From NCBI RefSeq assembly GCF_007362475.1, contig NZ_CP041687.1, positions 2,852,001 to 2,916,000 of the forward strand: a DNA stretch of 64,000 nucleotides. Reading direction: 5' to 3'. Under the pieces are notes generated by a model. The model did not search any database. It worked only from the letters and a program-made list of their open reading frames with translations, and was not told where the DNA came from. Below, in pieces: positions 27,741 through 59,422 of the stretch. Position 1 is the first letter of the stretch, and the number at the start of each line of letters is the position of its first letter. The DNA comes from Chryseobacterium sp. SNU WT5 (GTDB taxonomy: Bacteria > Bacteroidota > Bacteroidia > Flavobacteriales > Weeksellaceae). The translations under genes were made by a program, and so were the position numbers.

Positions 27741-28514
27741 ATGAAAATTGCAACATATAATGTCAATGGAGTAAATGGTAGATTGCCCGTTCTTTTACAG
27801 TGGCTGACTGCAGAGCAACCGGATGTAGTTTGCCTACAAGAATTAAAAGCTCCTCAAGATAAGTTCCCCGAACATGAAATTATGAAAGCAGGTTATCATG
27901 CTGTTTGGGTTGGACAAAAAAGTTGGAATGGAGTGGCAGTTTTAACCAAATCTAAGAAAGCGACTGTCATCCGAACTAACCTTCCTGGAGATGAAACAGA
28001 TGAGCAGAGTAGATATTTGGAAGTAAAGGTGGATGACCTAACAATTGTGTGTATTTATGTGCCTAATGGAAATCCAACGCCAGGCGATAAATTTGATTAT
28101 AAACTCAATTGGTTACAGAGATTAGATGCTCAAGCTGAACTTTTAATCAGTTCTGGAAAACCAGTAATCATCACTGGTGATTTTAATATTATTCCCACAG
28201 AGGAAGATGTGTATAAACCTGAAAAGTATAAAAAAGACGCTCTTTTTCTACCTGAAGTTCGTACGGCATTTGAGAATTTAATTGATCAAGGTTGGACCGA
28301 TGCTCTGCGACATCTTTACCCAAGAGAGACAATTTATACTTTTTATGATTATTTCCGAAATGCTTATGAAAGAGATGCGGGGATGCGAATCGATCATTTT
28401 CTCCTTTCCCCTGACCTTTTACCTACTTTAGAAAGAGGTGGTGTAGATAAGAAGGTTCGAGGTTGGGAGAAAACGAGTGATCATGTTCCAACCTGGATTG
28501 AGGTTAGGGAATAG
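27741..28514 (+). CDS. xth: Exodeoxyribonuclease III
   Basis: A 257-residue DNase of the endonuclease/exonuclease/phosphatase fold that cleaves at abasic sites and removes 3' blocking groups in base-excision repair. It starts KIATYNVNGVNGR with the active-site Asn. Further on are CLQELK (catalytic Glu near residue 37), YVPNGNP, TGDFNIIP (Asp/Asn pair near 147) and the final SDHVPTW (Asp/His). The full motif set and the length match ExoA/XthA. It is convergent with the Fpg/Nei-like glycosylase gene, 17 bases between stops. The two enzymes act in consecutive repair steps, so the proximity is biologically sensible though they are not one operon. Confidence 0.95.
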   Translation: MKIATYNVNGVNGRLPVLLQWLTAEQPDVVCLQELKAPQDKFPEHEIMKAGYHAVWVGQKSWNGVAVLTKSKKATVIRTNLPGDETDEQSRYLEVKVDDLTIVCIYVPNGNPTPGDKFDYKLNWLQRLDAQAELLISSGKPVIITGDFNIIPTEEDVYKPEKYKKDALFLPEVRTAFENLIDQGWTDALRHLYPRETIYTFYDYFRNAYERDAGMRIDHFLLSPDLLPTLERGGVDKKVRGWEKTSDHVPTWIEVRE

Positions 28515-28531: not shown

Positions 28532-29254
28532 TTACTGATAAACTTTCTGCACTTTCTCTACAACGTAGGTTTTTCGTTTAATTTTTGGAGCTACATATTC
28601 GAGGACCTTTTCCTTTTTCCACTCTTTTTTCTTGTAAACGGAACTTGAAGATTTCCAGATTTTTTGTTCAATTAATTCAACTGAAGCTGATGAAAAGTCT
28701 TTAATATTACGAAGCAATTCATCAACTTTTTTTGCCGGAATTTTATTAACTGTACTTTCAGGGTGAATTTTACTTAAAAATAAGACCTCATTTCTGAGGA
28801 TATTTCCCAAGCCTGGAAATACATCTTGATTCAAAAGAACATCACCAATTTTGTTTTCGGAATATTTTTCGAGTAAAAGTTGGTGTGTTTTTTCTAATTC
28901 ATATTTTTCAGAGAATACATTAAGTTGCTGATCAAAAGAATCTCTATTATCTAATTTTTTGATTTTAACTACATAGAAGTTGATGAAATTTTTATCAAAA
29001 AATAATGAAAAACTTGCATTAACCTTTTTCGTATCATCAATTAAAAAACTGCCAAATAGACCAAAATGAACGGTGATAATAAAATGATTGAAATCGAGAA
29101 GTAGATACTTTCCGTATGTTTCAATATCTTTTAAAATTTTGCCAGAAATATCTTCAGCAAAAGGATTGTTGTAACCGCCGCTTTCAGTCACTTTCCGTCC
29201 TTTAAACTTTTGCATTCTCTTTTGGAAAACTACAAGTGTTGGTCCCTCCGGCAT
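28532..29254 (-). CDS. Fpg/Nei-family DNA glycosylase with a zincless finger
   Basis: A 240-residue bifunctional DNA glycosylase/AP lyase of the Fpg/Nei family, expected to remove oxidised bases. The N-terminus MPEGPT supplies the catalytic Pro2 and Glu3. The helix-two-turn-helix is intact (NQDVFPGLGNILRNEVLF, about residues 143-160). The C-terminal finger keeps the exact family spacing 2-16-2, but its four metal positions are W212, E215, V232 and V235 instead of cysteines. Arg227, five residues before the third position, is the conserved DNA-contacting Arg. The whole protein contains no Cys. This is a zincless finger like that of vertebrate NEIL1, so the enzyme may well be active. The start codon shares one base with the stop of the topoisomerase IB gene upstream, implying coupled translation. 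Confidence 0.9.
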   Translation of the reverse strand: MPEGPTLVVFQKRMQKFKGRKVTESGGYNNPFAEDISGKILKDIETYGKYLLLDFNHFIITVHFGLFGSFLIDDTKKVNASFSLFFDKNFINFYVVKIKKLDNRDSFDQQLNVFSEKYELEKTHQLLLEKYSENKIGDVLLNQDVFPGLGNILRNEVLFLSKIHPESTVNKIPAKKVDELLRNIKDFSSASVELIEQKIWKSSSSVYKKKEWKKEKVLEYVAPKIKRKTYVVEKVQKVYQ

Positions 29255-30369
29255 TATTTAGGCTTTTCGTTCTGTAGAATTTTCATCACAATCTGTTCTT
29301 CTTTAGTCAAACCTGCTTTGCCATCGTCAACTTCAATTTCATCTAATTCGCTCAAATATTTTTTAATAGAATTATTTTCATAAAGATTGATAATAAGTGG
29401 ATGAATATAATATTTACGACACACCGTACTGGTATTTCCCAATTCACAAGCGACCCGTTCAATGGCATGTTTGATTTTGGTTTTTTGATTGTCTTCGTTT
29501 TCCTGCATATCGATCTCCTTAAAAGCTATTAATGCGTTTACTGTTCCCGACCAGGTCCGGAAATCTTTTGCGCTAAAGTTTTCACCACTGATTTCCTTAA
29601 TATAATCATTCACCATTCCACTGTCGATGGCATGCCTCTTTCCCTCCTCATCATAAAATTGAAATAATTCTTTTCCTGGGATATCACGGCAGTTTTTAAC
29701 GGCTTTTGCAAGTTTTGCATTTTTTAAATCGATATCATGGTAAATACCCTTCTTGCCTTTAAAGGAAAATTTTATTTTTTGACCTTTAACGTTCACATGT
29801 TTATCTTTCAGAGTTGTTAAGCCGAATGAACCATATAATTTTTCATAGATATTATTACCGATTCGAATATTCGTTCGTTCCATCAAACTTACCACCAGCG
29901 CTAGAACTTTACGTTTATCTAATTTACGATGAGCAAGATCCTGTTCTAAATTGAGACGAATCTGTGGAAGTGCATCGCCAAACTTAAGCATTCGATAAAA
30001 TTTGGTATGATTTCGAAGTGCGTTCCACAGTGGGTGATAACGGTATTGTTTTCTTTTTTTTGCATCAAGACCGGTTGCTTGTAGATGTCCGTTTTGTAGG
30101 GCACAAATCCAAACACATTCCCAAGCAGGAGGAATAGCAAGCTTTTGAATACGCTCTATCTCCTCCTTATCATTTATTTTGATCCCCTTGTAAAAATAAG
30201 TGAATTTTTCACCTCTTTTTTTTCTTACAAAACCGTTATCTTCCGCATCTGTAGTATAGATTAAGTTGACTGCCTTTGCAGATTTCACCGGATCCTCCAT
30301 GATTTTGACTAATTTGGACGGAGTTATCTTGGTGATAATCTCTAAATTAAGTGGCTCAGGCTTCATCAC
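29254..30369 (-). CDS. DNA topoisomerase IB (poxvirus-like bacterial type)
   Basis: A 371-residue type IB topoisomerase that relaxes supercoils through a 3'-phosphotyrosyl bond. Two domains are visible: an N-terminal DNA-clamp part (about residues 1-130, with EIERIQKLAIPPAWECVWIC and DAKKRKQYRYHPLW) and a catalytic part. The catalytic Arg lies in MERTNIRIGN, the Lys in the KDKHV beta-hairpin, a second Arg in FRTWSGTVNAL, and the nucleophile Tyr in CRKYYIHP (Tyr320/321). Length and order match bacterial TopIB. The downstream glycosylase gene overlaps it by one base, which suggests joint expression of a supercoil-relaxing and a base-repair enzyme. The ATG at 30366 is an equally possible start. 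Confidence 0.94.
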   Translation of the reverse strand: MMKPEPLNLEIITKITPSKLVKIMEDPVKSAKAVNLIYTTDAEDNGFVRKKRGEKFTYFYKGIKINDKEEIERIQKLAIPPAWECVWICALQNGHLQATGLDAKKRKQYRYHPLWNALRNHTKFYRMLKFGDALPQIRLNLEQDLAHRKLDKRKVLALVVSLMERTNIRIGNNIYEKLYGSFGLTTLKDKHVNVKGQKIKFSFKGKKGIYHDIDLKNAKLAKAVKNCRDIPGKELFQFYDEEGKRHAIDSGMVNDYIKEISGENFSAKDFRTWSGTVNALIAFKEIDMQENEDNQKTKIKHAIERVACELGNTSTVCRKYYIHPLIINLYENNSIKKYLSELDEIEVDDGKAGLTKEEQIVMKILQNEKPK

Positions 30370-49598: not shown

Positions 49599-51608
49599 AT
49601 GGAAAATAAAAATTTAATTCAGAAAAGTATTGATACCGTAAGAGTTTTATCCGCCGATGCCGTTCAGAAAGCCAATTCCGGACATCCTGGAACACCAATG
49701 GCTTTAGCTCCTTTAGGTCATGTTCTTTGGTCAGAGGTGATGAAGTACAATCCGAAAAATCCTGACTGGGTAAATCGTGATCGGTTTATTCTATCTTGCG
49801 GTCACGCCTGTATGTTGCAGTACAGTTATTTACATTTAACCGGTTACGAAATTTATTTAAAGGATATCGAAAATTTCCGTCAGATTCATAGTATTACGGC
49901 GGGACATCCAGAATACGGACTCACTCCTGGAATCGAAGTTACCACCGGACCTTTGGGACAAGGATTTGCCAATGGAGTAGGAATGGCAATTGCGCAACAA
50001 TATATGGCGAAACGTTATAATCAACCGGATTTTAATATCTTCGATTATCATATTTATGCGATCTGCAGCGATGGTGATTTAATGGAAGGAGTTTCCGCAG
50101 AAGCCGCCTCTCTTGCCGGTCATTTAGGTTTGGGAAATATGATTTATTTCTACGACAGTAATCACATCACGATAGAAGGTGATACCGATTTGGCTTTCGA
50201 TGAAGATGTCTCCAAACGTTTTGAAGCTTACGGATGGCATGTTCAAAACCTTCCAGATATTAATGACTTAGAAGCAATTAATGCCGCAGTTAAAAACGCA
50301 AAAGATGAAACAACTCGTCCTTCCTTAATTAAAGTTCGAAGCATTATTGGTTACGGAAGTCCTAACAAACACGACACTGCTGCAGCTCATGGTTCGCCTT
50401 TAGGAAAAGATGAAGTTCGTTTGGTAAAAGAAAATTTCGGCTTTGATCCTGACAAAAGCTTCATTATTCCTGAAGAGGTGGCAGATTTTTATCATAAAGC
50501 TGGAAAGAAAGCAGCTAAAAATGAAACTGAATGGAACGAACTTTATAATAATTACAAGAAACGTCATCCTGAACTTGCCAAAGAATATGAAAATATAACT
50601 TCCGGAAAATTACCTGATGGATGGAAGGAAAAACTTCCTGTATTCCAACCGGGTGAAGAATTAGCCACCAGAAAAGCTTCTGGTAAAACTTTGAACGCCA
50701 TTGCTGAATATTTCCCACAATTAATTGGGGGTTCCGCCGATTTAGCGCCATCCACAGATACAAATCTCGACGCCTACGCATCTTTTTCACCAAAACACCG
50801 CGACGGGAGAAACTTTCATTTTGGAATTCGTGAACATGCGATGGGAGCAGTTTTAAACGGAATGGTGCTCAGCAATTATCTGATTCCATACGGCGCAACA
50901 TTTCTTATTTTTTCAGATTATATGCGACCTCCACTTCGATTAGCTTCGATTATGAAAATCAGGCCTATTATGGTTTATACCCACGACAGTATTGGTTTGG
51001 GTGAAGACGGAACAACGCACCAACCGGTTGAGCAATTAATTGGATTGCGAACAGTTCCAAATATGACTGTCATTCGGCCAGCTGATGCAAATGAAACCGC
51101 GCAAGCTTGGCGCGTTGCAATCGAACACAAAGATGGACCGGTTTGTATTGTCTTGACTCGACAGGGAATTCCGATCATTGATCAGAAAAAATATACCAGT
51201 GCAAAAAATTTAGAAAAAGGAGCTTATATTCTTTCTGATTGTGAAGGCGAACCAGATCTAATTCTCATTGCGACTGGTTCAGAAGTTCAATTGATTTTGT
51301 GCGCTCAAGAAGAATTAAAGAAAAGTAAAATTCGATCACGGGTAGTAAGTATGCCATGTTGGAATTTATTTGATGATCAAAATGCGGCCTATAAAGAAAA
51401 GGTTTTCCCAAAAAAAATTAGAAAACGATTGGCTGTAGAAGCCGGCTCACCTGTTGGCTGGATGAAATATACAACTGATGATGGAGACGTTATCGGAATT
51501 GAAAAATTTGGTGAATCTGCACCTGCAGAAGAAATATTCAAGGAGTACGGCTTTACGGTAGAAAATGTGGTGAAAAGAGCACGGGATTTGCTTTTAAAGA
51601 AAGATTAA
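49599..51608 (+). CDS. tkt: Transketolase
   Basis: A 669-residue, full-length single-chain transketolase that moves two-carbon ketol units between pentose-phosphate and glycolytic sugars using thiamine diphosphate. Motifs: ANSGHPGTPM (near residue 25) and GHPEYGLTPGIEVTTGPLGQG, then the ThDP/Mg motif CSDGDLMEGVS with its downstream Asn (DSNHITIEG). The C-terminal half has the catalytic Glu in FGIREHAMGA and THDSIGLGEDGTTHQPVEQ. Length and motif order are those of bacterial TktA, not the split type common in many other bacteria. It is the first gene of the cluster tkt-rpiB-tal-HAD-gnd-zwf-pgl-pgi, with rpiB 53 bases downstream. No -7 consensus is seen before it, but a palindrome lies there. 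Confidence 0.97.
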   Translation: MENKNLIQKSIDTVRVLSADAVQKANSGHPGTPMALAPLGHVLWSEVMKYNPKNPDWVNRDRFILSCGHACMLQYSYLHLTGYEIYLKDIENFRQIHSITAGHPEYGLTPGIEVTTGPLGQGFANGVGMAIAQQYMAKRYNQPDFNIFDYHIYAICSDGDLMEGVSAEAASLAGHLGLGNMIYFYDSNHITIEGDTDLAFDEDVSKRFEAYGWHVQNLPDINDLEAINAAVKNAKDETTRPSLIKVRSIIGYGSPNKHDTAAAHGSPLGKDEVRLVKENFGFDPDKSFIIPEEVADFYHKAGKKAAKNETEWNELYNNYKKRHPELAKEYENITSGKLPDGWKEKLPVFQPGEELATRKASGKTLNAIAEYFPQLIGGSADLAPSTDTNLDAYASFSPKHRDGRNFHFGIREHAMGAVLNGMVLSNYLIPYGATFLIFSDYMRPPLRLASIMKIRPIMVYTHDSIGLGEDGTTHQPVEQLIGLRTVPNMTVIRPADANETAQAWRVAIEHKDGPVCIVLTRQGIPIIDQKKYTSAKNLEKGAYILSDCEGEPDLILIATGSEVQLILCAQEELKKSKIRSRVVSMPCWNLFDDQNAAYKEKVFPKKIRKRLAVEAGSPVGWMKYTTDDGDVIGIEKFGESAPAEEIFKEYGFTVENVVKRARDLLLKKD

Positions 51609-51661
51609 GATCTATTTAATTTCTTTTCCTTTCATCATTTCTAACGAATTCAAATAAAAAA

Positions 51662-52123
51662 ATGTCCAACGAAACCCTTAAAATAGGAATTTGTGCAGAT
51701 CACGGAGGTTTTGAACTCAAAGAGAAAATTGTTTCCTTTTTAATAGAGAATAATTTTCAACCGGTTGATTTTGGTGCAAAGCAACTTGATAATTCGGATG
51801 ATTTTCCGGATTACGTTATTCCGCTCGCGAAAGCGGTTTCGGCTGGAGAAGTTTTTCGTGGAATTGCCATTTGCGGAAGTGGAGTCGGTGCCTGTGTTGC
51901 AGCAAATAAAATATCCGGCGTAAGAGCGGCTTTAATTACCGATTATTTTTCGTCGCATCAAGGCGTGGAAGATGATGACATGAATTTAATTTGTCTCGGT
52001 GGTCGCGTAACAGGATATGCAAGTGCCGAAGAGTTGGTTTTGGCTTTTTTAAACGCAAAATTTATAGGTGCTGATAGACATTTACGGCGTCTCAAGAAAA
52101 TTGAAAGCATAGAAAAAAAGTAA
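51662..52123 (+). CDS. rpiB: Ribose-5-phosphate isomerase B
   Basis: A 153-residue RpiB-type sugar-phosphate isomerase that converts ribulose 5-phosphate and ribose 5-phosphate. It shows the ADHGGFELK phosphate site, YVIPLAKAVSAGE, and the active-site CGSGVGACVAANK with its Cys (near residue 71), then the late CLGGRVTGYASAEELV segment. In many RpiB proteins the middle segment reads CGTGIGMSIAANK, so CGSGVGACVAANK is a slightly divergent variant. Length equals the family norm. It belongs to the pentose-phosphate cluster, between tkt and tal, and forms the isomerase step; the epimerase is missing from the cluster. Confidence 0.92.
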   Translation: MSNETLKIGICADHGGFELKEKIVSFLIENNFQPVDFGAKQLDNSDDFPDYVIPLAKAVSAGEVFRGIAICGSGVGACVAANKISGVRAALITDYFSSHQGVEDDDMNLICLGGRVTGYASAEELVLAFLNAKFIGADRHLRRLKKIESIEKK

Positions 52124-52141
52124 GACTTAGTTACAGTTTCC

Positions 52142-52225
52142 TTTACGAAGTGTAACGCCTTTGCCGACTTAATTAAGCACAATGTTTAAAAAATCTTTGC
52201 GAAACTTTGAGTTAAAAGACATTTA
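52142..52225. repeat. Dispersed non-coding repeat, copy 3 (weak)
   Basis: It shares patches with the repeats at 6252-6420 and 59499-59655, for example CTTTAC then GCCTTTGC, and later AATCTTTGCGAAACTTTGAG. It lies in the gap between rpiB and tal. Confidence 0.4.
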
Positions 52226-52269
52226 TAGAAGTTGAGCAAACTCATATAATAATTTTTAAAACAAACAAA

Positions 52270-53358
52270 ATGAATCCTTTAAATCAAATACGAAATTTAG
52301 ATCAAAGTATATGGCTCGATTTATTAGATCGGGAAATCATGACTTCCGGCAAATTGCAAAGTCTTATTGATAATGACGATCTGGGTGGACTTACTTCCAA
52401 TCCTTCTATTTTCGAAAAAGCCATCAGCGGAAGTTCAGATTACAACGAAGATATTGGAAATCTGGCGCAAACCAAAACGGATAATTCAGCGATATTTTTC
52501 GATTTAGCGATTGCAGATATTCAGAAAGCTGCTGATATTTTTAAACCCGTTTACGATAAAACGAATGGGAAAGATGGTTTCGTAAGTTTGGAAGTTTCGC
52601 CTTATCTCGCACGGGATACCGACGGAACGATCGAACAGGCAAGAGAACTTTGGATAAGAGTGGATCGTAAAAATGTGATGATCAAAATCCCGGGAACAAA
52701 AGAAGGTTTAATCGCCATTCGGGAATGTTTGCGCGAAGGAATTAACATCAATGTCACCCTGCTTTTCGGACTTCCACGTTATCGGGAAATTACCGAAGCT
52801 TTTATGGGCGGCCTGGAAGATCGCCTCGCAGAAGGAAATTCTATTAAAGACGTAGCCTCTGTTGCAAGTTTCTTTTTAAGCAGAATTGATGTCATGGTCG
52901 ATCCAATGTTAAAAGAAAAAGGCGCAGAAAATTTAAATGGAAAGATCGCGATTGCTTCTGCAAAACAAGCGTATCAGATCTATCTGGAAATGATTTCCTC
53001 TGATCGTTTTAAAAAGCTTGAAGAAAATGGTGCCCAAAAACAACGCGTACTTTATGCAAGTACGGGAACAAAAGATCCTTCCTTCAGTGATGTGCTTTAT
53101 GTAGAGAGTATTATCGGAAAAGATACCATCAACACGCTTCCGATTGAGACGATCGACGCTTTCCGTGATCATGGAAAAGCAGAAGAAACTCTGACAACCA
53201 ATCTGGAGGAGGCGAAAAAAGCCATGGCTGAATTGAAAGAGAAAGGAATCGACATTGATAAAATTACGCAGAAACTGGAAGATGAAGGAATTGAAAAATT
53301 CAATCAAGCTTATGAAAAACTCATCAAAAGTATCGATAATCAAAAACGTAAACTATAA
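52270..53358 (+). CDS. tal: Transaldolase
   Basis: A 362-residue transaldolase of the long (TalB/actinobacterial-type) class that moves dihydroxyacetone units through a Schiff base. It opens with QSIWLDLLDREIMTSGKL and GGLTSNPSIFEKAI. The catalytic Lys is in the strand VMIKIPGTKEG (near residue 141), followed by INVTLLFGLPRY and SFFLSRIDVMVD, then ASTGTKDPSFSDV near 260. All motifs and the length fit. A long spacer of 146 bases with a weak repeat separates it from rpiB, whereas the HAD pseudogene follows after three bases, showing tight coupling to the rest of the operon. Confidence 0.95.
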   Translation: MNPLNQIRNLDQSIWLDLLDREIMTSGKLQSLIDNDDLGGLTSNPSIFEKAISGSSDYNEDIGNLAQTKTDNSAIFFDLAIADIQKAADIFKPVYDKTNGKDGFVSLEVSPYLARDTDGTIEQARELWIRVDRKNVMIKIPGTKEGLIAIRECLREGININVTLLFGLPRYREITEAFMGGLEDRLAEGNSIKDVASVASFFLSRIDVMVDPMLKEKGAENLNGKIAIASAKQAYQIYLEMISSDRFKKLEENGAQKQRVLYASTGTKDPSFSDVLYVESIIGKDTINTLPIETIDAFRDHGKAEETLTTNLEEAKKAMAELKEKGIDIDKITQKLEDEGIEKFNQAYEKLIKSIDNQKRKL

Positions 53359-53361
53359 ACA

Positions 53362-53985
53362 ATGATTGATTTTGATGTTTCGAAAATTAAGGTAGTTTTC
53401 ATGGATATCGGCGGAGTTTTGCTCACCAATGGTTGGGATCACGAATCTCGGGAAAAAGCTTCGAAAGTTTTTGGCTTTGATTATACCGAAATGAACATTC
53501 TCCACAATTTCATTTATAATGTTTTTGAAATTGGCAGTATTTCTCTTGAAGAGTATTTGGATACCGTTTTATTTCATCAACCCAGAGATTTTTCAAAAGT
53601 CGATTTCAAACAGTTTATGCTCGCTGAATCTCTGGAATTACCCGAAATGCTCGAGTGGTCAAAATCCTGGAAAGAGCAAACTAATTTAGCCCTGTTTGCG
53701 CTAAGTAATGAAAGCGAGGAACTTAATGATTACCGAATTAAGACATTTAAATTACACGATCTCTTCGACGGATTTTTTTCCTCCTGTTATTTAAAAATGC
53801 GAAAACCTGACCCCAGAATTTACAAAAGAGCGATGGAAATTGCATAGGTTAAACCCGAAGAATGTGTTTATTTAGATGACAGACCCATGTTGATCGCTGC
53901 AGCTCAAAAATTAGGCATGAATTCTATCCTTCATCAGGATTTTGAATCATCAAAAAATGTTTTAGAAAACTTTATAAGAAAATAA
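53362..53985 (+). pseudogene. HAD-superfamily hydrolase interrupted by one in-frame TAG
   Basis: An apparent 207-codon HAD hydrolase gene closed early by TAG at 53845-53847 (codon 162). The upstream part carries motif I FMDIGGVLL, motif II LFALSNES and the Lys of motif III (RKPDPRIYK). The downstream 45 codons stay in frame and hold motif IV (CVYLDDRPMLIAAAQKLG), then the final TAA one base before gnd. Thus the whole gene is readable except for one codon; TAG differs from CAG (Gln) by one base. Without motif IV the 161-residue product would lack the metal-binding Asp pair, so it is probably inactive unless TAG is read through. It may be a sequencing error. Position between tal and gnd suggests a sugar-phosphate phosphatase. 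Confidence 0.85.
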
Positions 53986-53986
53986 A

Positions 53987-55423
53987 ATGATGAACGAAAA
54001 TAAAAACCAAAACGCTTTTGGAATGATCGGTTTGGGAACAATGGGTTCTAACCTTTTACAAAATATTGCAGACCACGGCTATCGCTGTGCTGGATACGAT
54101 AATAATACGAAAACCGTTGACAATCTCAACAATTTAAAAAATGAAAACATCTATGGATTTTCGAATTTAAAGGAATTTACAGAAAGTCTTAAAAGTCCGA
54201 AAGTTGTCATGATGTTGGTTCCAGCCGGCGAAATAGTAGACAGCGTGATCAAAGATTTACTCACCGTTTTAGATAAAGGAGATATCATTATCGATGGTGG
54301 AAATTCACATTTTACCGATACTGAAAGACGGTATTTGGAACTGGAAAAAGAAGGTTATCATTTCGTTGGAATGGGAGTTTCTGGTGGTGAAGAAGGTGCG
54401 AGAAGAGGTCCAAGCATGATGCCGGGTGGAGATAAAGATGCCTATGAAGTTTTGAGGCCGATCCTTGAAAAAATTGCCGCTCATGTCAATGGAGAACCAA
54501 CTGTTGCTTTTATGGGAGAACGTTCTGCCGGACATTTTGTAAAAATGGTTCACAACGGAATTGAATATGCGATCATGCAACTGATTTCTGAAACGTACGA
54601 GATCATGAAGAATGGGCTTGGAATGGAGAATGATGAAATTCAAAAAGTGTATAAAAAATGGAATGAAGGCAAATTAAAATCCTATTTAGTAGAAATTACG
54701 AGTGATATTTTCGACTACAGAAATGAAGGTGAAAAAGATCTATTATTAGACAGTATTCGTGATCAGGCGAAAGCAAAAGGAACGGGTAAATGGACTTCTC
54801 AGGCAGCGATGGATTTACATCTTCCGACTCCGATTATCGATATTGCGGTTTCCATGCGGGATCTTTCGAGCTTAAAAGAGTTACGTCTAGAAGCTTCCAA
54901 AATATATCCGGATTCTACGGAAATGCATTACAAAACGAACAACGGGGATTATTGCAAAAAGTTGGAAGAGGCGTTCTATTTTGCCACGGTATCAGCTTAT
55001 GCACAAGGAATGCATTTGCTTTATCAGGCGAATATTGAATTTAAATATAATTTGAATTTAGATATCATTGCAAAAATTTGGCGTGGTGGCTGTATTATCC
55101 GGTCTGAATTTTTAGAAGATATTTACGCAGCTTATAATAGAAACCCCGAATTAAAACATTTGCTTTTAGATGATAAAGTTGCACAGGACGTTAATTCCAC
55201 TATTCCAGCGGTTCGTGCTATCGTTTCAGATGCAGTGATTCATGGGATCTCAACTCCTGCATTTTCTGCGGCCTTAAGTTATTTTGATGATTTTAGAAAT
55301 GAAAATATGCCGACCAATTTGATTCAGGCACAACGCGATTATTTCGGATCTCATACCTATGAACTGAAAGCGAAAGAGGGCGTTTTTCACACCAAATGGA
55401 TGATGGAAAACATCAAGGAGTAA
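53987..55423 (+). CDS. gnd: 6-phosphogluconate dehydrogenase (decarboxylating)
   Basis: A 478-residue NAD(P)-dependent enzyme converting 6-phosphogluconate to ribulose 5-phosphate and CO2, the last oxidative step of the pathway. The nucleotide-binding GLGTMGSNLLQN (about residues 16-27) is followed by IIDGGNSHFTDT, MGVSGGEEGARRGPSMMPGG (substrate-binding, near 130), KMVHNGIEYAIMQL (catalytic Lys) and the C-terminal dimer segments. Length matches the long tetra/dimeric form. Its ATG follows the HAD stop by one base. zwf lies 33 bases downstream, so the oxidative branch is encoded in one unit. The cofactor choice cannot be read confidently. Confidence 0.97.
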   Translation: MMNENKNQNAFGMIGLGTMGSNLLQNIADHGYRCAGYDNNTKTVDNLNNLKNENIYGFSNLKEFTESLKSPKVVMMLVPAGEIVDSVIKDLLTVLDKGDIIIDGGNSHFTDTERRYLELEKEGYHFVGMGVSGGEEGARRGPSMMPGGDKDAYEVLRPILEKIAAHVNGEPTVAFMGERSAGHFVKMVHNGIEYAIMQLISETYEIMKNGLGMENDEIQKVYKKWNEGKLKSYLVEITSDIFDYRNEGEKDLLLDSIRDQAKAKGTGKWTSQAAMDLHLPTPIIDIAVSMRDLSSLKELRLEASKIYPDSTEMHYKTNNGDYCKKLEEAFYFATVSAYAQGMHLLYQANIEFKYNLNLDIIAKIWRGGCIIRSEFLEDIYAAYNRNPELKHLLLDDKVAQDVNSTIPAVRAIVSDAVIHGISTPAFSAALSYFDDFRNENMPTNLIQAQRDYFGSHTYELKAKEGVFHTKWMMENIKE

Positions 55424-55456
55424 ATTCTTTTTTAATATTTAGATAAACATTAAACA

Positions 55457-56968
55457 ATGCCAAACACAATCAACATACAACATCCGACCGTTCTCATTAT
55501 TTTTGGAGGTAACGGAGATTTAACAAAAAGGAAGATTATCCCAGCTTTATATAATCTTTTTCTTGAAAAGCGATTGCCTGACAAATTTGCGATTATTGGA
55601 ACTTCAAGAACGAAATTCACCGATGAAAAGTATCGCAGTATGCTATTGGCAGGAATCAATGAATTTTCCCGAACAGGTAAAGCAAAGAAAGAAGATTGGG
55701 CAATATTTTCTGCGAATATTTCTTACCAGGCGGCGAATATTAAAGACGTTGCTTCCTACAATGATTTTGAAGCAAGCATCACTAAACTCAAAGAAGAGTG
55801 GAAAGAAGATCCTGCTATTTTATATTACTGCGCAGTTTCGCCCGATTTATTTTGCACCATCGCAGAGAATGTTTCAAAAAGTAAATTAGAAAATAATAAA
55901 GAAACAACACGCATCATCATCGAGAAACCATTTGGTCGTGATCTCGAATCTGCAAAAACTTTAAACGCCAAATTGCTTACTATTTTTGATGAAAAGCAGA
56001 TCTACAGAATCGATCATTATCTAGGAAAAGAAGTCGTTCAAAATGTAATGGCTTTCCGTTTTGCAAATACAATTATGGAACCTTTGTGGAACCGTACTCA
56101 TATTGAACATGTGCAGATTTCGGTTACGGAACAAATCGGTGTTGAAGATCGCGGAAGTTATTTTGATCATGCCGGAATTTTGCGCGATATGATTCAAAAT
56201 CACTTGCTTCAATTGTTGTGTATTATCGCGATGGAACCACCTGTGAACTTTGATGCAGATCTCGTACGTGATAAAAAAGTGGAAGTGTTAAAAGCGATTC
56301 GCAAAATTATTCCGGGAATGATCGATAAGATTGCAGTTCGTGGTCAGTATGGTGCTGGTTGGGTAGAAGGAAAAGAAGTTCCGGGTTATCGAGTCGAAGT
56401 TGATGTTGATCCAAATTCCAATACAGAAACGTACGCCGCTATGAAATTTTATGTTGATAATTGGCGTTGGCAAGGAGTTCCGTTCTATTTGCGTACTGGG
56501 AAAAGATTATTTAAGTCGGCTTCTCATATTATCATTCAGTTTCGGGAAGTTCCACATAATATGTTCAATCACAAAGAAGAAAATCTGCCAAAACAAAATC
56601 GATTGATTATCAGTATTCAACCCGATATGGCGATCAAATTTCAACTGGAAAGTAAAACGCCAGGTTTGGAAATGACGTTGAATACGGTAGATATGGTTTT
56701 TGATTATTCCGGAAAAACAAAAATAGATTCGCCCGAAGCGTACGAAACGCTTTTACTGGATGTAATTTCGGGAGATCAAACATTATTTATGCGGGCAGAT
56801 CAGGTAGAAGCTGCCTGGGAAGTGGTGATGCCGGTTCTTGATTATTGGGAAAATAATAAGATGCCCGATTTTCCTAATTATCCTGCCAATTCCTGGGGTC
56901 CGGAAAATGCCGAAGCTTTGATTGCAAAAGATGGTTTTCACTGGATAAATTTACCCGATAAAAATTAA
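55457..56968 (+). CDS. zwf: Glucose-6-phosphate 1-dehydrogenase
   Basis: A 503-residue dehydrogenase that oxidises glucose 6-phosphate to 6-phosphogluconolactone and reduces NAD(P). The Rossmann motif is FGGNGDLTKRKIIPALYNL (residues about 15-33), the active site RIDHYLGKE has Asp186 and His187 (R184), and the EKPFGRDLESA segment is typical. The C-terminal domain has FYLRTGKRL and the final motif near PVLDYWE. Length is normal. It lies between gnd and pgl, each gap being under 40 bases, so these three oxidative-branch enzymes are made together. Confidence 0.97.
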   Translation: MPNTINIQHPTVLIIFGGNGDLTKRKIIPALYNLFLEKRLPDKFAIIGTSRTKFTDEKYRSMLLAGINEFSRTGKAKKEDWAIFSANISYQAANIKDVASYNDFEASITKLKEEWKEDPAILYYCAVSPDLFCTIAENVSKSKLENNKETTRIIIEKPFGRDLESAKTLNAKLLTIFDEKQIYRIDHYLGKEVVQNVMAFRFANTIMEPLWNRTHIEHVQISVTEQIGVEDRGSYFDHAGILRDMIQNHLLQLLCIIAMEPPVNFDADLVRDKKVEVLKAIRKIIPGMIDKIAVRGQYGAGWVEGKEVPGYRVEVDVDPNSNTETYAAMKFYVDNWRWQGVPFYLRTGKRLFKSASHIIIQFREVPHNMFNHKEENLPKQNRLIISIQPDMAIKFQLESKTPGLEMTLNTVDMVFDYSGKTKIDSPEAYETLLLDVISGDQTLFMRADQVEAAWEVVMPVLDYWENNKMPDFPNYPANSWGPENAEALIAKDGFHWINLPDKN

Positions 56969-56980
56969 AAAAAAGTAAGG

Positions 56981-57703
56981 ATGAATTTGAGAATTTATAA
57001 GAATATTGACGACGTAATATCTGCTTTGGCAGAAAATATTTGCGAAGTTGCCAAGGAATCAATTCAAGCGAGAGGACAATTTAATTTTGTACTTTCAGGT
57101 GGAAGTTCACCCAAGAAATTATACGAGTTACTCGCTTCCGATTCTTTTAAAAATAAAATCGATTGGGATAAAACCTATTTTTTCTTTGGTGATGAACGGT
57201 TTGTTCCTGCCGATGATTCTCAAAGGAATTCTGTCATGGTGGAAGAAGCTTTATTTAAACCTTTAAAAATTAATAAATCGAATATTTTTAAAATTGATAC
57301 CACTGGTTCGCCCGAAGAATCTGCGCAGAAATACTGGCAATCAATTTTGAAACATTTTGATGGGAAACCGGTGAAATTTGATTTCAATCTTTTAGGTTTG
57401 GGTGATAATTCCCATACCGCTTCACTTTTCCCAAATACCTCAGTTCTAAAGGAAACTGAAGCGACCATTAAATCTATTTTTGTAGAAGAAGTTGATATGG
57501 ATCGAATTACGATGACGGCACCTTTAATTAATGATTCCAGACATATTGCATTTTTAGTTTTCGGGGAAGGAAAAGCAGAAGCGGTTTTTCATGTTTTAGA
57601 AGATCAGTCGGGTTCTGCAACTGAATATCCAGCTCGTTTAATTACAAAGGACGAAAATAAAGTTCAGTGGTTTTTAGATGGAATGGCCACATCTCGATTA
57701 TAG
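56981..57703 (+). CDS. pgl: 6-phosphogluconolactonase (SOL/DevB type)
   Basis: A 240-residue lactonase hydrolysing 6-phosphogluconolactone to 6-phosphogluconate. It has the SOL/DevB (NagB-like) fold with VLSGGSSPKKLYELLA at about residues 38-53, FFGDERFVPADDSQRNSVM (about 69-87), and NLLGLGDNSHTASLFP (about 140-155), holding the conserved Asp/His substrate contacts. Length equals the DevB norm; the unrelated seven-bladed (YbhE) type is excluded by these motifs. It starts 12 bases after zwf and precedes pgi, in the same direction. Confidence 0.95.
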   Translation: MNLRIYKNIDDVISALAENICEVAKESIQARGQFNFVLSGGSSPKKLYELLASDSFKNKIDWDKTYFFFGDERFVPADDSQRNSVMVEEALFKPLKINKSNIFKIDTTGSPEESAQKYWQSILKHFDGKPVKFDFNLLGLGDNSHTASLFPNTSVLKETEATIKSIFVEEVDMDRITMTAPLINDSRHIAFLVFGEGKAEAVFHVLEDQSGSATEYPARLITKDENKVQWFLDGMATSRL

Positions 57704-57769
57704 AAATTGAATTATTGTTAAAACATGAACGCTGATAAATGTATTTTTAAATATTTAAAGAGTTAAAAA

Positions 57770-59422
57770 ATGTTCCCTAAAATAAACCCAACTGAAACGA
57801 CTGCTTGGAAAGAATTAATTGCTCACCAAGCGGAAATGAAAAAAGTGCAAATGACAGACCTTTTCAAAAAGGATACAAAAAGGTTTGAGAAAATGAATAT
57901 TCAGTTTGATGATATTCTTTTTGATTATTCTAAAAATATTATGAATGACGAAACGTTGCAAAAACTTTTGAATTTGGCGGAAGATTGCAAGGTAAAAGAG
58001 GCGAAAGAAGCAATGTTTGCCGGAGAAAAAATAAATCAGACTGAAGATCGTGCCGTGATGCATACTGCCTTAAGAAATTTTTCAGTAGAGCCCATTATAA
58101 TTGATGGCCACGATATTATGCCTGAAATTCGTAAAACCCGACAAAAGATGAAATCTTTTTGTGAAAAAATTCACAGTGGAGAATGGAAAGGATATTCAGG
58201 AAAGAAAATTAAAAATATCGTCAACATTGGAATTGGAGGAAGTGATCTCGGTCCAGTAATGGTGACTGAAGCTTTGAAACCTTATTGGATTGAAGGAATT
58301 GAAGCACACTTTATTTCGAATGTAGATGGTACTCAAATTGTAGAAACGCTCAAAAGTTTAAATCCCGAAGAAACGCTTTTCACCATTGCCTCAAAAACAT
58401 TTACGACTCAAGAAACAATGACCAACGCTCATACAGCGCGAGATTGGTTCTTGCAAACGGCTAAAGAAGAGAAATTTATCGTTCAACATTTCGTGGCACT
58501 TTCTACCAATGAAAAAGGAGTGCAAAAATTTGGAATCGCACCCGAAAATATGTTTGTATTTTGGGATTGGGTAGGAGGTCGTTACAGCATATGGAGCAGT
58601 ATTGGGCTTTCTATCGCGCTCACGATTGGCTATGACAATTTTGAGAACTTATTGAAAGGAGCTGAATCAACCGATAAGCATTTCCAAAATACCGATTTTA
58701 AGGAAAATATTCCTATAATCATGGCACTGATTGGTATATGGTATACTAATTTTTTCGGTTCAGAAACTGAGGCGATTTTTCCATATGATCAGTATATGCA
58801 TCGTTTTCCAGCTTATTTTCAACAAGGTAATATGGAAAGCAACGGTAAACATACCGAGCGGAATGGGAGATCGGTGACTTACAGTACAGGACCAGTAGTC
58901 TGGGGAGAGCCTGGCACGAATGGTCAGCACGCATTTTATCAGTTAATTCATCAGGGAACTCATTTAATTCCGTGTGATTTTATTGCTCCCGCAATCAGTC
59001 ATAATCCGATTGGTCTTCATCATCAAATTTTAATTTCTAATTTTTTTGCACAAACAGAAGCGCTGATGAATGGAAAAACTGCAGAGCAGGTATTTTCTGA
59101 ATTGATAGAAGAAGAAATAAAGAAATTAGAAATGGAACAATTGATTCCATTTAAAGTATTTACAGGAAACAAGCCGACGAATTCTTTTTTAATGAGAAAA
59201 ATTACACCATTTTCTTTAGGAGCATTGACAGCACTTTATGAACATAAAATCTTTGTTCAGGGGGTTATATGGAATATTTTTAGTTTTGACCAATGGGGTG
59301 TTGAGCTGGGTAAACAGTTAGCCCAAAAAGTTCTTCCTGAACTACAAAATAATGAACAGGTAGAATCTCATGATGCTTCTACAAACGGATTGATTAATAC
59401 TTACAAAAGATGGCGCGTATAG
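57770..59422 (+). CDS. pgi: Glucose-6-phosphate isomerase
   Basis: A 550-residue isomerase interconverting glucose 6-phosphate and fructose 6-phosphate. Long-form Pgi features are visible: [18 protein letters not shown] (phosphate site, about residues 150-167), [77 protein letters not shown] (catalytic Glu/His region) and the terminal Lys in [15 protein letters not shown]. Length and all motifs are normal. It is the last plus-strand gene of the cluster; a weak AT-rich stem and a non-coding repeat follow. glk lies opposite and convergent, 349 bases away. Confidence 0.97.

Follow-up and report, generated by a model that had tools for sequence, protein, structure and literature searches.

The window, a stretch of 64,000 nucleotides from the Kaistella bacterium Chryseobacterium sp. 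SNU WT5, carries a gene whose product belongs by its domains and residues to the Fpg/Nei (H2TH) DNA glycosylase superfamily, and in which all four zinc ligands of the finger have been replaced. The product is probably an active bifunctional glycosylase/AP lyase with a predicted zincless finger. It looks like a working enzyme with a metal-free finger, because all of the ligands are gone and because the loss is common to related species and under strong selection. The gene and its neighbours are the following:

28532..29254, minus strand: zincless-finger Fpg/Nei (H2TH) DNA glycosylase, 240 aa (assigned from the ORF, Pfam, clade, dN/dS, AF2 and tree)
29254..30369, minus strand: DNA topoisomerase IB (topoIB), directly upstream of the glycosylase gene (Pfam Topoisom_I, 3.9e-39)
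27741..28514, plus strand: exodeoxyribonuclease III (xthA), convergent neighbour (TIGR00195, 1.5e-77)

The glycosylase ATG at 29254 shares one base with the topoIB stop (TAATG), as the first-pass annotation had it, and xthA is by family an AP endonuclease of base-excision repair. Pfam matches the window protein to the Fpg N-terminal domain (PF01149; 36.8 bits, cut-off 25.5, 6.7e-9) and the H2TH domain (PF06831; 51.3 bits, cut-off 34.7, 1.2e-13), and found no zinc-finger domain in it. The scores lie below the cut-off of the Fpg/MutM equivalog TIGR00577 (66.2 bits versus 203.3) and far below that of the endonuclease VIII/Nei equivalog NF007763 (53.5 bits versus 252). A four-ligand zinc finger is lacking, and membership of the superfamily still stands since this also includes zincless members. 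The residues concerned, all on the minus strand, are these:

29246..29254, minus strand: Met1-Pro2-Glu3, the N-terminal catalytic residues, invariant in the clade
29108..29110, minus strand: Lys49, conserved active-site lysine, invariant in the clade and aligned with E. coli Nei
28802..28804, minus strand: Asn151 of the H2TH motif, invariant in the clade
28535..28630, minus strand: zincless finger, residues 209-240 (alignment with E. coli Nei and zinc-type relatives; AF2 hairpin)
28619-28621, minus strand: former ligand position W212 (alignment)
28610-28612, minus strand: former ligand position E215 (alignment)
28574-28576, minus strand: finger Arg227, which aligns with E. coli Nei Arg252
28559-28561, minus strand: former ligand position V232 (alignment)
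28550-28552, minus strand: former ligand position V235 (alignment)

The ORF and its alignment, for which the E. coli Nei sequence was confirmed against PDB 1k3w, bear out what had been read from the DNA, namely that Pro2, Glu3, the H2TH motif and Arg227 are present and that W212, E215, V232 and V235 stand in place of the four ligands. The 2-16-2 finger spacing reported in the first-pass annotation is shared with E. coli Nei in the alignment. The nearest relatives, however, have 2-18-2, which leaves the window finger shorter by two residues and makes the register of E215 less secure. It is also true that the whole protein has no Cys, although this is weak evidence on its own and we rejected it as evidence in itself: 10 of the 47 window ORFs of at least 150 aa are Cys-free, and at the window's Cys rate the chance of finding none in 240 aa is 0.16. 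What goes beyond chance, on the aligned sequences, is the loss at four ligand positions common to 12 genomes.

The homologue search covered 149 relatives, then 36 Kaistella genomes and then 320 Weeksellaceae genomes. Zincless proteins were found in 12 genomes including the window's own (11 of the 36 Kaistella and one from a related genus), among them Kaistella antarctica, K. yonginensis, Chryseobacterium salipaludis and Chryseobacterium sp. FF12, with 60-79% identity to the window protein. In a tree built without the finger columns they form one clade with support of 100/100, sister to the group II zinc-type enzymes, so that the clade with common substitutions that had been predicted does exist. 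The ligands are lost in all 12 members, L010 retaining the first Cys only. P2, E3, K49, N151, W200, K226-R227-K228-T229, E233 and Q236 are invariant in all of them, the former ligand positions vary (W/Y/F/C; E/K/Q/L/D; V/N; V/I/T/L), and residues 217, 221, 230 and 231 remain hydrophobic or aromatic.

Frames are open in all 12 genomes, and pairwise dN/dS between the nearest clade pairs is roughly 0.03-0.14 over the whole gene and roughly 0.02-0.09 over the finger (last 40 codons). In deeper clade pairs dS is saturated, and between these members the finger evolves faster than the core; one very recent pair (L008/L009), which differs by few changes, has a ratio of 0.34. The first-pass annotation had named decay beside four-Cys homologues, or an assembly error in the last 100 bases, as readings that would overturn it. 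We found no sign of decay and a low dN/dS, and since 11 other genomes carry the zincless gene a local assembly error is not the explanation; together with the open frames this rules out an assembly error or a pseudogene. The sequences thus define a real and conserved clade of predicted zincless-finger H2TH glycosylases in Kaistella.

AF2, given the window protein and six relatives, returned a model with pLDDT 86.7 and pTM 0.82. The finger is modelled without metal as a hairpin (218-221/228-231), with pLDDT of only 51-86 by 10-residue block, which is compatible with the prediction of a metal-free fold; on a zinc-type relative the finger pLDDT was <50, a comparison biased by an alignment of mostly zincless rows. 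Aligned along its full length, the model has NEIL3 (Z 25.4) and NEIL2 (Z 24.9) as its best fold matches, followed by Mimivirus L720 (Z 22.8), E. coli Nei (Z 22.6), Lactococcus Fpg (Z about 22) and Arabidopsis Fpg (Z 21.6). Comparison with a profile of the family gives the same two best matches, NEIL3 (1.8e-40) and NEIL2 (1.5e-33), with Fpg at 2.7e-16 and Nei at 6.3e-14. By profile the 240-aa Bacteroidota family as a whole (window 28532-29254 and L013-L050) is nearer NEIL3/NEIL2 than bacterial Nei or Fpg. Ahead of the finger, the linker is without the long loop typical of Fpg, and the HxxL[YF]G loop is Nei-like, from which we infer a Nei/NEIL-like substrate range.

The closest known relatives are the group II zinc-type enzymes of Kaistella and near genera (for example L018 and L056), which resemble the window protein in length, catalytic residues and H2TH, share the finger tip KRKT[YF] with its clade and are 39-46% identical. 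They differ in having a CPKD/H...CxxC finger (three Cys plus Asp/His) two residues longer than that of the window protein, and their genes, unlike those of the window clade, are not adjacent to topoIB. Group I homologues come next, with a CPxCG ... C-x-x-C/D finger. Asp or His often replaces one Cys in the zinc-type relatives L013-L030 and L041-L048 (the second ligand in group II, the fourth in much of group I), and three-Cys fingers are common in the 240-aa family.

E. coli Nei has the MPEGP start, H-x-x-L-[YF]-G loop, 2-16-2 spacing and equivalent arginine (Arg252/Arg227) in common with the window protein, but carries a Cys4 zinc finger and is about 19% identical. NEIL3 and NEIL2 both have zinc-binding fingers, that of NEIL2 being CHCC (PMC3188539), and identity to the window protein is only about 25%; NEIL3 moreover has further domains. 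The known zincless fingers of NEIL1, AthFpg1 and Mimivirus L720 are hairpins that carry a phosphate-clamping Arg and lack zinc ligands (PMC3188539, PMC9266487, PMC4176347), a form that the window finger is predicted to share, and zincless and zinc fingers are superimposable (PMC4176347). NEIL1, plant/fungal Fpg and Mimivirus L720 are however probably separate lineages: in the Bacteroidota trees the window clade nests within an otherwise zinc-type 240-aa family, and its best profile matches are NEIL3/NEIL2 and not NEIL1.

Two H2TH proteins are encoded in the window genome, the window protein and L031 (L031 998-1723; in its own genome G000:C1:663576-664298). In L031 the zinc ligands are intact, but residue 2 is Ser, Asn151 is replaced by Pro and the finger Arg is deleted; its gene sits at the same locus as the active group II genes of other species. 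Because L031 is catalytically incomplete, the window gene appears from these sequences to be the only Fpg/Nei homologue of its genome whose active site is complete. Also encoded there are a Ku and two HhH-GPD proteins of 205 and 348 aa, which in size correspond to Nth and MutY. Zinc ligands are kept and catalytic positions lost in L031, L032-L037, L044, L049 and L112; the losses affect Pro2 in most, the H2TH Asn and the finger Arg, and Lys49 in one lineage. On the tree, catalytic loss at the group II locus arose twice, and dN/dS of 0.08-0.18 in the set with L031 indicates purifying selection.

An active group II gene is present in 1 of 11 genomes with the zincless gene versus 19 of 25 without it (Fisher p 2.7e-4). 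The exclusion loses its significance when independent pairs on the species tree are compared, and we rejected it on that ground. That the zincless gene drove group II decay is likewise unsupported, as the loss in the G003/G014/G034/G024 lineage is common to species without a zincless gene.

In 12 of 12 zincless loci topoIB is immediately upstream of the glycosylase, an arrangement absent from every zinc-type relative that was checked. In ten of these loci the two genes overlap or stand 2 bases apart, and in two they are separated by about 34 bases. Co-expression of the two genes is probable, presumably from a common transcript. TopoIB is widespread in relatives without the zincless gene, and G007 and G018 have an empty site, where about 84-117 bp separate xthA from topoIB and no glycosylase gene intervenes. 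XthA is a neighbour in part of the clade only; in G028, G061 and G021 the topoIB-zincless pair is near LigD. G021 and G024 (L152 and L054) share a block of at least 9 kb holding LigD-topoIB-zincless that is 95.6% identical, whereas identity is 77% in their pheS and pgi regions, and the pheS region of G024 matches that of G034, a genome without a zincless gene, at 93.6% identity. These values show horizontal transfer of the block. G024 also has a second topoIB about 30 kb away.

The species markers were pheS and pgi, since transketolase is not universal in these genomes. In the window (49599-59422), transketolase has a full-length high-scoring match in only 14 of the 36 Kaistella genomes and the glucose-6-phosphate isomerase copy is found in 4 of 36, with zwf between isomerase and transketolase.

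Could the ligands have been lost because the enzyme no longer works? L031, from a sister lineage in the same genome, has lost catalytic residues, so that catalytic loss does occur in this family here. A decaying or non-catalytic homologue is nevertheless unlikely, as the catalytic residues of the zincless protein are invariant in 12 genomes, its frames are intact everywhere and purifying selection extends to the finger. We regard it as slightly less likely still that the finger binds metal by means of a different set of ligands (Glu, Asp, Asn, His or backbone). Asp/His is already in use at the second position in group II relatives, and Glu215 and the invariant Glu233 are near former ligand positions, but the four positions show no quartet of candidate ligands conserved throughout the clade.

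There is a somewhat greater, albeit still small, chance that the glycosylase is specialised with topoIB or a LigD end-joining neighbourhood, for example on topoisomerase-trapping damage, and does not serve general base excision repair. The pairing with topoIB holds in 12 of 12 loci, although the outer neighbour is xthA in some and LigD in others, and LigD, topoIB and the zincless gene have moved together in the transferred block; however, topoIB occurs without the zincless gene in most relatives, and pairing of genes alone is no proof of a common pathway.

The reading that we favour is that of a functional zincless glycosylase, probably co-expressed with topoIB. Attack on the sugar of a damaged nucleotide would fall to Pro2, assisted by Glu3 and Lys49, while two residues, Asn151 in the H2TH motif and Arg227 at the tip of the finger, would grip the phosphates next to the flipped base. 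In place of zinc, a small core of hydrophobic and aromatic residues (W/Y/F212, V217, V221, Y/F230, V231 and V232) would hold the hairpin of the finger together. Zincless NEIL1 resists 2-thioxanthine, an oxidant of Fpg zinc-finger thiolates (PMC4176347), and the likely benefit of the arrangement would be a grip on DNA independent of oxidisable thiolates and of zinc supply.

A Bacteroidota survey gave 60 H2TH matches, one of them false. Seven of these proteins (L245, L251, L253, L254, L263, L264, L268) have no ligands at all and five (L255-L257, L258, L302) have the first Cys only. These ligand-less and one-Cys Fpg are of the MPELP type, and in a quick tree with long branches they fall on a different major branch from the window clade, which implies at least two zinc losses in Bacteroidota; on these sequences there have probably been more than two. 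The first-pass annotation had called a zincless finger unexpected in Flavobacteriales. The clade is real, but other Bacteroidota Fpg lineages, one of them in the same order, also have zincless or one-Cys fingers, and near relatives already carry Asp or His at the second ligand position; its zincless reading is thus supported overall, with the rarity overstated and metal-free function being a prediction. A wider scenario, which we offer as speculation and think improbable, is that Bacteroidota repeatedly drop the Fpg/Nei zinc finger and that the Kaistella zincless gene and topoIB, sometimes with LigD, form a mobile two-gene unit that serves lineages with a catalytically dead resident zinc-type enzyme, both products acting on the same lesions.

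Bacterial Fpg/Nei clades have been described as having four perfectly conserved Cys (PMC3188539), and zincless fingers have been placed in animals (NEIL1), plants/fungi and Mimivirus (PMC3188539; PMC9266487). Our search of the open-licence literature found no paper on Bacteroidetes Fpg/Nei fingers, on Bacteroidetes with NEIL2/3, on topoIB with LigD or on Kaistella with Fpg, and earlier reports elsewhere are possible. In the open papers searched, zincless fingers are reported from those three groups alone, and the bacterial clade is an addition to them. It is about 40% identical to its zinc-type sisters, with Asp/His variants in between, which makes the transition from zinc to zincless finger directly testable, and the several further losses in the phylum suggest that this transition is recurrent. 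The window protein itself offers a small, Cys-free glycosylase that is predicted to be metal-independent, and the closeness by profile of the 240-aa Bacteroidota family to NEIL3/NEIL2 is a lead on the origin of NEIL2 and NEIL3.
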